Source: Coriobacteriia bacterium (GTDB lineage: Bacteria; Actinomycetota; Coriobacteriia; Anaerosomatales; Anaerosomataceae). Taken from it: a DNA stretch of 38,009 nucleotides. The DNA is taken from NCBI GenBank assembly GCA_016933785.1, contig JAFGAG010000017.1, forward strand, positions 1 through 38,009, in the 5' to 3' direction. Positions within the stretch are counted from its first letter, which is position 1, and each line of letters opens with the position of its first letter. Shown here one piece after another: positions 7,856 through 13,774 of this stretch. The notes beneath the pieces were generated by a model, which saw only the letters and a program-made list of their open reading frames with translations, was not told the DNA's origin and did no database searches. Made by a program: the position numbers and the translations under genes.

Positions 7856-9214
7856 CTACACCACCAGCTCACGCAGCGCCGCTCGCACCGCCGCCGGCAT
7901 GCGCTCCCGCAGCCGCACCGGATCGCCCATCGCACGCGCAAGGATGCGCGTGGTGAACGGCTGCGCGGTCTCAACGATGTCGATCTCGGGATACAGCGCC
8001 CGGGCGACACCCTCCACCGTGGCCAGCGACTTGATGAGCAACCCGTACCCGCTCGGAATCGCGACGCCATGCTCGCCGAGCAGCTTCAGGAAGCCCAGCC
8101 CGAAGTGCGCGAAGTCCCGCGTCCCATCGGGACGGACATCGCCGTCGAGCAGGGCGCCAAGGCCCCGGCGCACCGGCTCCACATGCTCCGGCGGCACATG
8201 CACGCCGAGTTTCTCCGAGTATCGCAGCGCGCGATCTGGATCGCGGTAGATGAGCGCCGCCATCACCTGTGTGATGTTCATGCGCTCCTCCGGCGTCAGA
8301 TACCCGACGATGCCGAAGTCGAGATACGCGATCGTGTTATCGGGTGTGACGAATATGTTGGCCGGGTGCAGGTCGGCGTGGTAGCGCCCGTAGACGAACA
8401 CCTGCCGCATGAACGCGGTAGCCCCATGGATCGCGAGACCCTTGCAGTCCACACCCGCCTCGCGCGCGATCTCCAGGTCGCTCAACCGCCAACCCGTGAT
8501 GAACTCCATCGTGAGCACCTTGCCGGTGCTCCTCGTCCAGACGATCCGCGGTGCTTGCACCCTGGCGTCATCGCGGAAGTCGAACGCGAAACGGTCCGCG
8601 AAGCGGCCTTCCTGACGAAGATCGAGCTCGCGGTCGACCGTGGATGAGAACTCGTCGACCAGCCCGACCGGATCGAACCGCCGGGCGAGTCGAGTGCCGG
8701 CCATGCGTTCGGCGAGCCTTCGCACGATGGCGACATCCCCGAGTATGGACTCGGCCGCGCCAGGGCGGACGACCTTCACGACCACCTCGGCGCCTGCGGG
8801 GAGCACCTCTCCCCACACAGGTCGGTACGGGCTCGCGAGCGTCGCCCGGTGGACCTGTGCTATCGAAGCGGCGGCAAGGGGCTTGTTGTCGAAAGTCTCG
8901 AAGAGATCCTCCGGCTCGGCCGCGAACTCCGAGCGGATGACGGCGCGGATCGCCTCGGCAGGCAGTGGCGGAACCGCGTCTTGCATGCGCTGCATCTCGG
9001 CGACCAACTCGGCGGAGAACTCGTCCGGGCGCACGGAGATGAGCTGCCCGAGCTTGATGAACGCCGGCCCGAGCCGCTCGAAGGAGCGTCGCAGACCGCG
9101 CGCCCAGGCGGCACGACGTACGTGAGCCGGTGCGAGCCCGAAGCGCGCGGCGGGAAGCTGGCCTACGAGCTGGCCAACGATGACGCCGGTGATGACAACG
9201 CTGCGGGAGGCCAC
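7856..9214 (-). CDS. UbiB/AarF (ABC1) family atypical kinase-like protein
   Basis: The 452-residue protein has the hallmarks of the ABC1/UbiB family: the KxGQ motif in FIKLGQLISVRPD, the alanine-rich loop AAASIAQVHRA replacing the glycine-rich loop, the lysine in VVVKVVRPG, the ExD-type VDRELDL, HADLHPANI and the metal-binding DFG in LDFGIVG. Family members are ATPases linked to isoprenoid-quinone biosynthesis or lipid homeostasis. It ends without the two C-terminal membrane helices found in many bacterial members. The GTG at 9214 is chosen because it starts eight bases after the stop of the preceding small gene and leaves the whole ABC1 domain; no strong ribosome site is present, suggesting coupling. 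Confidence 0.85.
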   Translation of the reverse strand: MASRSVVITGVIVGQLVGQLPAARFGLAPAHVRRAAWARGLRRSFERLGPAFIKLGQLISVRPDEFSAELVAEMQRMQDAVPPLPAEAIRAVIRSEFAAEPEDLFETFDNKPLAAASIAQVHRATLASPYRPVWGEVLPAGAEVVVKVVRPGAAESILGDVAIVRRLAERMAGTRLARRFDPVGLVDEFSSTVDRELDLRQEGRFADRFAFDFRDDARVQAPRIVWTRSTGKVLTMEFITGWRLSDLEIAREAGVDCKGLAIHGATAFMRQVFVYGRYHADLHPANIFVTPDNTIAYLDFGIVGYLTPEERMNITQVMAALIYRDPDRALRYSEKLGVHVPPEHVEPVRRGLGALLDGDVRPDGTRDFAHFGLGFLKLLGEHGVAIPSGYGLLIKSLATVEGVARALYPEIDIVETAQPFTTRILARAMGDPVRLRERMPAAVRAALRELVV

Positions 9215-9222
9215 GGGGCGCC

Positions 9223-9564
9223 CTAACCGCCGACCTTGCGCAGGATCGTCTCCAGGAGCGACTCCATGGTGTCGAGGCGTCCGCGGAGTTCGGCCACCTC
9301 GAAGCGGATCTCGTCGAGCGCGGGATCGGCCGACTCCTCGCTCGCGACCTCCTCGCCACGAGCGCGAGCGGCAAGATCGGCCTTCAGCTTCTCTTTCTCC
9401 TCCTCGACCATCGCCGCCAGACCGTCGACGAACGCGTCGGGGCCTCCGCTCATCCCCTCGGGACCGCCGCTCATCCCCCGCCGGATGGCAGCTTTGATCT
9501 CCTCGTCGGCAGCCTCGTGCGTGAACAGCCATGTGGCGAAGAACCGCATGACATCGTCGGTCAT
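9223..9564 (-). CDS. Small charged coiled-coil protein upstream of the UbiB homologue
   Basis: The 113-residue protein has an N-terminal segment with aromatic residues (FFATWLFTH), a glycine-rich linker with a duplicated MSGGP element near residues 31-42, a highly charged helix rich in Glu and Lys, and a C-terminal heptad-like segment (residues 83-110) that should form a coiled coil. The layout resembles small phasin-like or regulatory proteins encoded beside ABC1 kinases, but that is a resemblance of architecture only. A GAGGGG site precedes the ATG. It is tightly coupled to the kinase gene, with eight bases between stop and start, so a joint function is likely. Confidence 0.7.
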   Translation of the reverse strand: MTDDVMRFFATWLFTHEAADEEIKAAIRRGMSGGPEGMSGGPDAFVDGLAAMVEEEKEKLKADLAARARGEEVASEESADPALDEIRFEVAELRGRLDTMESLLETILRKVGG

Positions 9565-9669: not shown

Positions 9670-12057
9670 TCATCGCTCCGGCGTGCGCCCCAGAAGCCGC
9701 AGCCCGTTTGCGATCACGAGCAGCGCGATCCCGGTGTCAGCGAAGACCGCCATCCACAGCGTCGCCTTACCCACGACCGCGAGTGCGATGAACACGACCT
9801 TCACGGCAATGGACGCAGCCACGTTCTGCCGGATGACACGCATCGTCCGCCTGCCGAGGGCGAGGAAGCGCGGCACGCCCGCGAGGTCGTCACCCATGAG
9901 CGCCACATCGGCGGTCTCGATCGCCGTGTGGCTGCCGGCCGCGCCCATTGCCACGCCGATGTCTGCCGTGGCGAGGGCAGGCGCATCGTTCACGCCATCC
10001 CCCACGAGCAGCACGGAACCGTAGCCCGCCCGCAACTCCTCCACGGCCCCGGTCTTGTCCTGCGGCAGCAGCCTCGACCGTACCTCTGTGATACCGGTCA
10101 TCTCCGCCACCCGGGCCGCGGCCTGCGGACTGTCGCCCGTCAACATCACCACGTGCTCGATGCCGCCCGCACGCAGCCCTTCCACAGCCGAGGCCGCTCT
10201 GGTGCGCACCGCATCGGCCACGCCGATCACGCCCAGTACGCGTGGAGGGACCGTGTCGTGCGCGAGCACGACGAGTGTCGTGAGGCCCTGAGCTTCGAGT
10301 TCGCCGATCGTCGTCTCCGCGCCGCCGGGTCCTGCCCCCTGCTCTGCAGCGCTCCGTGCGCTGACCACCGACACCTCGAGCCCATCCACCACGCCGCTCA
10401 CGCCGCGGCCGGGCTCCTCGCGCACGTCTCTCACTCCTGGAAGCGGACCCCCGACCGCCGCAGCCACCGCGGCGGCCAGCGGATGGTTGGAGTGCGCCTC
10501 GACCGCGGCCGCGAGACGCAGTACGCGGTCGGAGGGTTCATCGCCCAGTGCGACCACTTCGGCCACCACCGGCCGACCCTCCGTGAGCGTCCCCGTCTTG
10601 TCGAACGCCACGACCCGAATGCCCGCCGCCCGCTCGAGGAACGCGCCACCTTTCACGAGGATACCGTCGCGCGTGGCACGGGTGATGCCCGAGACGACCG
10701 CTACCGGCGTCGAGACGACGAGCGCACAGGGGCACGAGATCACGAGCAGCGTGAGGGAGCGATACACCCACTCCCGCCACCCTTCGAAGCCTGAGATGCC
10801 GGTCGCGAACTCGCCGAGCAGCGGACCGCCGACCGCAAGGGCGATCGCCGCGACGACTACGATGGGCGTGTACACGCGACTGAACCGGTCGACGAAACGC
10901 TGCACCGGTGCCCGGGTGGCCTGAGCGGATTCCACGAGCTCCACGATCCGAGCGATGGTCGTGTCAGTCGCCCCGGCGGTTGTGACGATCACGACGAGAC
11001 CCGATGTATTGAGCGTGCCCGCATAGACGAGGTCCCCGGGCCCCCGGTCGGCGGGTAGTGACTCGCCGGTGATGGGAGACTCGTCGAAAGCCGACCGCCC
11101 CTCGGTGATGCGTCCATCGAGCGGCACGCGCTCCCCAGGGCGCACCACCACGGACTCCCCGACGGCGACATCCTCTGGCCCCACCTCGAGTTCGACGCCG
11201 TCCCTGCGAACACGTGCCCGGGCAGGGGCCAGTGACATCAGCTCGCCGATCTCGCGCCTCGTGCGGGCCACGGAGCGTGACTCCAGCATGCCGCCGAGCG
11301 CGAACAGCACGATCACGGTGGCGCCCTCGCCCCACTCGCCAAGCGCAGCCGCACCCGAGACAGCCAGCGTCATGAGCACGTTCATATCGAGCGACCGCGC
11401 CATGAGAGAGACGACAGCACGGCGCCAGACGAGCGAGCCGCCGACGATGATCGCAAGCGCGTGAGCCGCCATCCCGGCGGTCTCGGCACCCGTCCACGAG
11501 AGCAACCATCCCACGATGAGCAGCGCCGCCGAGGCGGCCACGCTGACCTCGGTGCGGTTACGGGTCCACCACGAGACCGGCGGGAGCCCCGTGTCATCGG
11601 CAACAGCCAGCGCCTCGATGCCGTGTCCGGCGCCTACAACGATCGCCACCGCGCGCGCACGAGGGTCGTTCGCACGGTCGTACTCGATCCGAAGCAGGCC
11701 GGTCGCGAAGTTCACGTCGGCCGAGAGCACACCCGGAAGCTGCTGTACGGACTTTGCCACGGTCCGCGCGCAGTCGGGTCAATCAAGCCCTTCGAGGCGG
11801 TACACGGCGTGACCGAACGCATCGGCTTCCTCAAGTGCGCGCCGCTCGATCACGAGGTTCAGTTCTTCGAACGAGACCACCGACGGGTCGAAGGTGACCT
11901 CGAGCTCTCCCGCCTCGCTATCGCAGCGTGCGGTCAGAACACCTTCGAGTCCGCGAACGCCGGCGCAGATCCGCTCGGCGCACGCCACACAGTGCTGCGG
12001 ACCGGGAAGCACCGCGGCCAGGTCGAACCGGTGGGTCTCCGGCGCGGGATCGGCCAT
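9670..12057 (-). CDS. P1B heavy-metal ATPase, candidate selenoprotein (in-frame UGA as residue 93)
   Basis: Read through one UGA (11781-11779), this frame gives a 795-residue metal-exporting P-type ATPase. Order: metal-binding domain 1 with HCVAC (residues about 30-90), domain 2 starting LEGLD-UGA-PDCARTV, membrane helices, the TGES actuator loop, the SCPCAL metal site near 440, DKTGTLT near 485, HSNHPLA, and GDGVNDAPAL near 685. SCPCAL, and the K and D of the last helices (KVVF, ADTG), fit the Zn/Cd/Pb class. UGA stands exactly where the first Cys of the second CxxC motif belongs. Restart at GTG 11760 would have no ribosome site and would lose the motif. The ATG at 12057 is two bases after the permease stop. 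If UGA is a true stop, the gene is a pseudogene or two pieces. Confidence 0.75.
11748..11766 (-). promoter_or_regulatory. Candidate bacterial SECIS stem-loop
   Basis: Directly after the in-frame UGA of the metal ATPase the mRNA can form CGGAC/GUCCG, a perfect 5-bp stem with a nine-base loop CGUGGCAAA. The loop begins 18 bases after the UGA, the same distance as in E. coli fdhF, and has G as its second base, as usual for bacterial SECIS elements. The outer stem is interrupted and could extend by a G-U pair. Folding was done by eye. Confidence 0.5.
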
Positions 12058-12059
12058 CG

Positions 12060-12854
12060 TCACGCGACGTCCCGCCGCGAGAAGACGACCACCGCCGCGA
12101 TCAGGCTGACAAGCGCGATGCCCCCGTAGAGCCACCAGGCCTCGGAGGCGACCTGCTCGCCGTTGATGAGGAGTCCCGGCTGCCAGTAGGCGATGACGTT
12201 GACGGGGCCGAGCGCCTCAGCGGCCTCCGAGGCGCCAGACAGCAGATCGGCGACCCACAGCGTGCCGAGCAGTCCGGCCGCTATCGCACCCGGCTTGCCG
12301 CCGCCCCGGAAAATGGCCGATAGCAGCATCGCGAATCCGCCCACCGCGAGAACGAACAGTGTGCCGAAGGCGATCAGCATCCCGGTCACGTCCCAGCCGA
12401 GGTTGATGTCGTAGGTCGGCCCGAAGACCTCGAGCGGCACGAAGCTCGCCATGGCGAGCACGACCGCGTACACCACAAGCACGATCACACGCGTCAGCGC
12501 GACTTTCACCCGCGAGACCGGCTGCGAGAGCACGAACTCCATCGTGCCGGCAGCGATCTCACCGGCGAACGCACGCGAGGCGTAGATGATGACCGCCGAA
12601 CTCACGATGAGGATCCACATGATGCCGAGATACTCGGTCTGGAAGTAGCCACCGAGCGATGAGAACGGCACCTCCGAGCCGCCGAACACAGCGAGCAACT
12701 CCGGTGGGAACGTCTCGATGATGTTCGCGTACTCCTCACCGATGGTCGGGTAGAACCACGTCATCATCCAGGCATACGAGACCAAGCCGATCGCGAACCA
12801 GAACATGGAGGTGCGGTGCTGATGCAGTGTGGCCTTGAAAAGTGTCCAGCTCAT
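12060..12854 (-). CDS. ABC-2 type transporter permease
   Basis: The 264-residue protein has six likely membrane segments, beginning with TSMFWFAIGLVSYAWMM, and a cytoplasmic stretch GEIAAGTMEFVLSQPVSRVKVALTR, the typical coupling segment of ABC-2 family permeases. It should form a pump with the ATPase encoded just upstream. Substrate is not readable from sequence. The ATG at 12854 overlaps the ATPase stop by one base (TGATG), with GGAGG nine bases upstream; a GTG one codon earlier is possible. The downstream metal ATPase starts two bases after this gene stops, so the three genes form one coupled operon. Confidence 0.85.
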   Translation of the reverse strand: MSWTLFKATLHQHRTSMFWFAIGLVSYAWMMTWFYPTIGEEYANIIETFPPELLAVFGGSEVPFSSLGGYFQTEYLGIMWILIVSSAVIIYASRAFAGEIAAGTMEFVLSQPVSRVKVALTRVIVLVVYAVVLAMASFVPLEVFGPTYDINLGWDVTGMLIAFGTLFVLAVGGFAMLLSAIFRGGGKPGAIAAGLLGTLWVADLLSGASEAAEALGPVNVIAYWQPGLLINGEQVASEAWWLYGGIALVSLIAAVVVFSRRDVA

Positions 12855-13774
12855 CACTCCTCCCCTCCTTCGGCAGCGACAGGTTCGGCAGTGTCCCGGT
12901 AGTACTCGAGGAAGACGTCCTCGAGACTCGCCTGTTGGATATGCAGATCCAGGACCTGCCGCTCTGCGACACGCTTGATGAGGGCGTCCACCGCGTCACC
13001 CCGAGCGCGGGCGGTCAACGACGTGGCGCTGATGGCTGTCACGTTGTCCACACCGGGCACCTGGGCGAGCAACGCGGGATCGACCGGCTCGGCGAACTCG
13101 ACGCCCACCTGCCGCAGCCGCTTGCCGAGGAGCGCCTTGACGCCCTCCTCGGCTACGAGTTGTCCGCCGCGGATGATACCGACGGTGTCGCACACCCGCT
13201 CGACCTCGGAGAGGACGTGGCTCGAGAGGAAGACCGTGCGGCCCTCGGCCACCCGCTCCTCGATGACCGAGTAGACGGTCTCCTGGTTGAGCGGGTCCAG
13301 CCCGCTCGTCGGTTCGTCGAGAATCAACAGCTCGGGGTCGTGTGCGAGCGCGAGGATGAGCGCGAGCTTCTGCTTGTTGCCCTTGGAGAGTTCGCGGACA
13401 CGTCGCGACGGGTCGAACTCGAACCGCTCCAGCAGCTCATCGGCAAGTCTCCCCTTGCCACCGCGGAAGCCCGCCGCGTACTGCATGTGCCAGCGGCCGG
13501 TCTCCTTCTCGTACAGCCGCACCTCACCGGCCACATAGCCGATATGGTGCCGCAGGTCCGCGCCGTCGAGAGAGACCGCTTCACCGAGCAGAGTCGCACT
13601 GCCAGACGTCGGCTTGAGCATGCCGAGCAGGCAGCGGATCGTCGTCGTCTTCCCGGCCCCGTTCGGTCCCAGGAACCCGTAGACCGCCCCCTGCGGGACG
13701 CTCATGGTGAGATCGGCCACGCCTTTGGTCTTGCCGTAGTACTTGGTCAGCGATCGGGTGCTGATTACATCCAT
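12854..13774 (-). CDS. ABC transporter ATP-binding protein (ABC-2 exporter type)
   Basis: The 306-residue ATPase has Walker A GPNGAGKTTT near residue 38, the signature LSKGNKQKLAL, Walker B LLILDEPTSGLDP and the switch histidine in SSHVLSE. After the nucleotide-binding domain (about residues 1-220) comes a C-terminal extension of about 85 residues typical of this exporter class. It would energise the permease encoded one base downstream. The ATG at 13774 is the natural family start (MDVISTRSLTKYYGK). A possible minus-strand promoter, TTGGCG and TAGTCT with a 16-base gap, lies in the 179-base region before it. Its association with a heavy-metal ATPase suggests a membrane stress or export function, but this is inference. 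Confidence 0.9.
   Translation of the reverse strand: MDVISTRSLTKYYGKTKGVADLTMSVPQGAVYGFLGPNGAGKTTTIRCLLGMLKPTSGSATLLGEAVSLDGADLRHHIGYVAGEVRLYEKETGRWHMQYAAGFRGGKGRLADELLERFEFDPSRRVRELSKGNKQKLALILALAHDPELLILDEPTSGLDPLNQETVYSVIEERVAEGRTVFLSSHVLSEVERVCDTVGIIRGGQLVAEEGVKALLGKRLRQVGVEFAEPVDPALLAQVPGVDNVTAISATSLTARARGDAVDALIKRVAERQVLDLHIQQASLEDVFLEYYRDTAEPVAAEGGEE

Follow-up and report, generated by a model that had tools for sequence, protein, structure and literature searches.

We propose that one gene of the window (the whole 38,009-nucleotide stretch of DNA analysed, positions 1 to 38,009 of contig JAFGAG010000017.1 from the Coriobacteriia assembly GCA_016933785.1, order Anaerosomatales) encodes a heavy-metal ATPase whose in-frame UGA codon 93 is read as selenocysteine (Sec), a reading to which we assign a probability of about 0.95 from the sequence comparisons. 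That the product as a whole is a selenoprotein pump of the P1B-2 type appears almost as certain. An earlier note had put the gene forward as a candidate selenoprotein. This proposal is strengthened by a UGA codon conserved among relatives, by Cys as the alternative residue, by a hairpin that accompanies the UGA forms and is missing from the Cys forms, by selA, selB and selD genes in the assembly and in the lineage, and by the P1B-2 signatures of the encoded protein.

The gene lies on the minus strand (positions 9670 to 12057) and specifies 795 amino acids, from the ATG at 12057 to its own terminal TGA at 9672-9670. Its frame contains a single internal TGA, at 11781-11779, which is codon 93 and stands between LEGLD and PDCARTV; all the details that the earlier note had given of this frame held on re-reading. 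UGA is also the ordinary stop of two genes here, namely the ATPase gene itself and the permease gene upstream of it. The two N-terminal metal-binding domains that had been described, one before and one around the TGA, were both recovered. The first, HMA-like domain (11845 to 12003, minus strand, limits approximate), with CVAC at residues 23-26, lies within codons 1-92 and is indicated by one of two Pfam HMA stretches and by a weak TIGR00003 match (residues 21-68). The second (11674 to 11805, minus strand) is a normal HMA domain (PF00403, residues 85-128, whole-protein E-value 1.9e-18) containing the UxxC motif in the form GLD-U-PDC (residues 90-96).

The remainder of the protein is that of a complete P1B ATPase, as had been claimed. 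Pfam recognised E1-E2_ATPase and Hydrolase domains after the two HMA stretches; the score with the heavy-metal P-type ATPase profile TIGR01525 was 568.8 bits (cut-off 346.25) and that with the Cd subfamily profile TIGR01512 was 498.3 (cut-off 313.5), whereas the score with the Cu subfamily profile TIGR01511 fell below its cut-off. The top PDB match was ZntA of Shigella/E. coli, a P1B-2 Zn/Cd/Pb ATPase (4umv, also 4umw), aligned over residues 86-791 with an E-value of 3.9e-123. In the 4umv alignment, the CPC and DKTGT motifs are conserved, as are a Lys and an Asp-Thr-Gly in the last helices. The membrane CPC, together with this Lys and Asp, is the mark of P1B-2 ATPases. Sec93 is aligned with the leading Cys of DCxxC in ZntA, and the protein of the window differs from ZntA by this residue and by one extra N-terminal metal-binding domain. 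Judged from these signatures, the ATPase would be a P1B-2 exporter of metals of the Zn/Cd/Pb type, the specificity being predicted.

We propose the following mechanism for this ZntA/CadA-like pump with two N-terminal metal-binding domains. SelA, SelB, SelD and tRNA-Sec would decode UGA 93 as Sec, guided by a SECIS hairpin with its loop beginning 17 nt past the codon. In the membrane-proximal domain, Sec would thereby take the place of the initial Cys of GxDCxxC. Together with Cys96 and Asp92, Sec93 would form a soft-metal site (selenolate/thiolate plus Asp), which probably takes up Cd, Pb, Hg and Zn, all soft divalent metals, with higher affinity or at a higher rate than a Cys-Cys pair would, and the captured metal would then be handed to the intramembrane CPC site and exported. 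We infer the actual insertion of Sec in the living cell, the identity of the metal and the role as ligand, and we somewhat favour the view that Sec93 is a metal ligand within a Sec93-Cys96 selenolate/thiolate site. Nothing was found that points to selenide, which had also been suggested as a ligand of the Sec-Cys pair. The same motif lends itself to another selenoprotein reading, in which a selenenylsulfide between the Sec and the Cys closes or opens the site under oxidants, thereby gating metal export. UxxC is a classical redox motif, known Sec sites are mostly redox sites (PMC13188914, PMC9312934), and both behaviours are possible for thiol metal sites; however, this motif corresponds to the DCxxC by which an HMA domain binds its metal, the Asp is conserved, and we consider redox control rather unlikely.

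To follow codon 93 among relatives, we searched the home genome and 60 related genomes for orthologues. A close orthologue of the ATPase was found in 43 genomes, with 52-72% identity (the window's own copy set aside). There was one internal TGA in 30 of these 43 orthologues, no internal stop in 12, and an internal TAA in one. In the first 29 relatives read out, the codon corresponding to the U of GLD-U-PDC was TGA in 25 and TGC or TGT in four; more orthologues, of both the Sec and the Cys forms, were added afterwards. The position of the TGA was identical in every orthologue read out, and the UGA is thus conserved over much of the order Anaerosomatales (Coriobacteriia). Other, more distant orthologues have Cys (TGC/TGT) at this codon. 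The best ATPase matches in five genomes of the class outside the order (46-48% identical) contained no internal stop. An in-frame TAG, considered in some relatives as a second recoded codon, was rejected, for in those read out (L019, L022, L033, L039) it is the end stop of the gene. In one Cys-form orthologue (L096, G049:C48:6745-8946), the frame contains a TAA close to its end, following IAMGAAGSDAAL, possibly through decay or an assembly error.

The 5-bp stem with a nine-base loop that the earlier note had placed at 11766-11748 (minus strand), with a G at loop position 2, is indeed present (stem CGGAC/GTCCG, loop CGTGGCAAA), and one additional G-U pair extends it to 11767-11747 (5' arm 11767-11762, loop 11761-11753, CGUGGCAAA, 3' arm 11752-11747). 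The bacterial SECIS model comprises a loop of 3-9 nt and a stem of 4-16 bp, at a distance of 16-37 nt from the UGA, with a G at one of the first two loop positions, mostly in the form N1-G-[G/U]-N-N2 with N1 and N2 paired (PMC13188914). The hairpin of the window lies within all these limits, with a loop of 9 nt, a stem of 5-6 bp, a CGUGG sequence and 17 nt from the UGA to the loop, so that the comparison with a bacterial SECIS model, which had been recommended, came out in favour of the candidate.

For the comparison across the family, a hairpin was counted when positions 14-19 formed at least five of six pairs with positions 29-34 or 25-30, the T of the TGA being position 0. Such a hairpin, at +14 to +34, occurs in all 29 distinct UGA sequences of the subfamily and in none of 55 Cys homologues. 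It exists in two registers, pairing positions 14-19 either with 29-34 around a nine-base loop (register A, 18 sequences) or with 25-30 around a five-base loop (register B, 11 sequences). The loops of both registers start with CGUG in nearly all UGA sequences; one of them, L023, has CUUGG in its loop, which breaks the G rule. Register B shows a compensatory change, in that one inner pair is G-C in six sequences and A-U in five. One outer pair is likewise altered on both sides, and this signal was lost when the partner was slid. When synonymous codons were shuffled, the stem arose in 30% of the draws per sequence, which means that GC-rich coding sequence by itself favours it and that a hairpin in a single sequence is therefore weak evidence. 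Nevertheless, 8.6 stems were expected in the 29 sequences against 29 observed, which is more than GC-rich coding sequence accounts for. The weight of this evidence lies in the contrast between UGA and Cys forms across the family, the members of which are related, not independent. The observation exceeds chance: a single in-frame TGA was seen in 30 of 43 orthologues, always at this codon where it was read out, and the stem in 29 of 29 sequences.

These comparisons also bear on the possibility that the UGA is a true stop followed by a restart just downstream, for instance at GTG 11760, which would yield an N-terminal metal-binding peptide and an ATPase devoid of the second domain. Such a GTG, 18 nt past the UGA, is common in relatives; however, several lines of evidence make this possibility very improbable. 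First, the GTG codon is replaced by GTC in L035 and by TTG in L023. Second, it sits in the loop of the hairpin. Third, the residues flanking the UGA belong to one HMA domain, which is continuous in the Cys forms. Fourth, residues both before and after the UGA are conserved, the N-terminal 92 being up to 55% identical. In several orthologues the stretch from the previous stop to the UGA spans only about 20-50 codons, too short there for a useful N-terminal peptide; the UGA is thus not the end of such a peptide.

That the TGA reflects a sequencing error or a recent nonsense mutation, the gene being a pseudogene, had been named in the earlier note as the alternative to Sec. The home bin is an incomplete, slightly contaminated metagenome-assembled genome (77% complete, 5% contamination), yet 30 genomes of the order have one TGA, at the same codon in all those read out, the rest of the frame stays open at 52-72% identity and the hairpin is conserved. 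We retain only a minimal probability for this explanation, which is refuted by the recurrence of the TGA across families of the order. The comparison with homologues that had been recommended thus showed close relatives keeping both the TGA and the stem-loop, and distant Cys orthologues without the stem.

The machinery for Sec synthesis and insertion, the presence of which had been left to be checked, was found in the assembly except for tRNA-Sec. The bin contains selA (E-value 1e-155), with selB (encoding SelB winged-helix domains) and selD on the same contig. This selD reads MSTKAG-U-AAKWGPG, with a TGA close to its start, at a position that we take to be the site of the catalytic Cys/Sec of SelD. 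The bin holds two selD genes in all, each with an in-frame UGA (L014:5699-6733, minus strand, and G000:C84:5570-6595, plus strand, L207). A 153-amino-acid reading frame between selA and selB (L014:3395-3856, minus strand), 71% identical in G003, is without a Pfam match. Across the genomes, selA was detected in 48 of 61. No tRNA-Sec was found in the home bin (77% complete), even with the sequence of a congener as the query; the selA contig ends in a partial match, which was discarded because its sequence has a TAA-type anticodon loop and resembles a Leu-type tRNA. In the congeners G001 and G003, a tRNA-Sec with the anticodon TCA adjoins selB. Several relatives (G004, G017, G039) have two tRNA-Sec genes per genome, and the anticodons read out are TCA. 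General reassignment of UGA as a sense codon in this organism, for which we found no support, has next to no probability, since UGA terminates the ATPase and upstream permease genes, homologues hold Cys at the UGA positions, and selA, selB and a Sec-type selD are present.

It is worth noting that the home bin is a mixture of two related species, since contig C32 (selA, selB and selD) and contig C84 (the second selD) are homologous stretches of about 75% identity. The GC content is 0.667 in the window, 0.664 in C84 and 0.693 in C32, and C84 continues for about 1.9 kb beyond its selD before it ends; the selA/selB contig C32 may belong to the co-binned relative rather than to the organism of the window. 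The selenoprotein conclusion does not depend on the home bin, because G001 and G003 each carry the UGA-ATPase, selA, selB and tRNA-Sec together. In two genomes that are at least 96% complete (G012 and G016), the UGA ATPase and a UGA-selD are present, and neither selA nor a close selB was found. Missing contigs are the likely reason, since the selD contigs of G012 and G016 break off after about 2 kb and 4 kb on the side where relatives carry selA (compare G020 and G003). In G040 (99% complete), the ATPase is of the Cys form and selA, a close selB and selD were not found, as expected.

With regard to evolution, a tree of 100 ATPases (from a short search under one model, with some long branches) requires nine changes between Sec and Cys, at least six of which are forced by well-supported branches, and two families (f12 and f15) contain both forms. 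The most widely conserved neighbour in the order is the downstream gene of a UbiB/ABC1-type kinase (7856 to 9532, minus strand), which adjoins the Sec and Cys forms of the ATPase alike; therefore, Sec and Cys were probably exchanged at one orthologous locus. Directly upstream are the gene of an ABC-2 permease (12060 to 12857, minus strand), which stops 2 bases before the ATPase start and is kept as a neighbour in part of the home family, and that of its partner, an ABC transporter ATP-binding subunit (12854 to 13774, minus strand). The order has a second subfamily of Sec-ATPases (L079-L086, L099-L102, L107), about 44-50% identical to that of the window, with the motif GIT-U-LDC and a different but conserved hairpin (GTTC-GAGAA-GAAC inside a longer stem). 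In L097 and L098 (genomes G013 and G011), an ATPase frame without a CPC or HMA motif comes directly after a small HMA-like frame that ends with TAG, which looks like a separate chaperone-pump pair.

In the literature, UxxC "cation-transporting ATPase E1-E2" selenoproteins are already catalogued (PMC5029168, table entries 25 and 32; PMC9312934, COG2217 ZntA, example ABB15669.1; PMC13188914, TIGR01525) and the Sec-ATPase kind is also listed (PMC2398784). A Sec-ATPase is thus not new as a kind, and the ATPase of the window, which shares with the catalogued ones the family (TIGR01525 above cut-off) and the UxxC motif, is a member of a little-studied selenoprotein family, the precise roles of which in metal detoxification need study according to a review (PMC13188914). 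Sec occupies the same place in the motif of Sec-ATPases from Bacillota (Natronincola L143, Alkaliphilus L164, Thermincola L169/L170), which are about 40-45% identical to the Anaerosomatales clade (ABB15669.1 itself being outside this comparison); unlike them, the clade has its own hairpin sequence and often an extra N-terminal CxxC domain. The small HMA-type (seleno)proteins of NF041115 (UxxU_metal_bind) also have Sec in the metal-binding motif of an HMA-type domain, but they stand alone and have UxxU, whereas the protein of the window is an ATPase with UxxC, and their match to its residues 85-129 is weak (E-value 1e-9, below cut-off). Our literature searches combining selenoproteins with Anaerosomatales or "heavy metal-associated domain" returned nothing. 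To judge from the papers searched, the wide presence in Anaerosomatales, the two-domain CxxC plus UxxC layout, the two-register hairpin and the second subfamily are new.

Gene callers that treat UGA as a stop would split the gene into a piece of 92 residues and an ATPase that lacks the second metal-binding domain, and the gene is therefore probably misannotated in many genomes. More tentatively, we suggest that Sec acts as a non-redox ligand in an order-wide ion pump, that it has been repeatedly exchanged with Cys at a conserved locus, and that from one orthologue to another the 3' arm of the SECIS element has shifted by four nucleotides while its 5' arm and the start of its loop stayed fixed. 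If true, this would provide a natural series for testing why metal transport keeps Sec. Most known selenoproteins are redox enzymes, whereas here a metal pump would retain Sec throughout an order in the motif that binds the metal. The Sec and Cys orthologues with the same UbiB neighbour would allow a clean comparison of what Sec contributes to the capture of soft metals.
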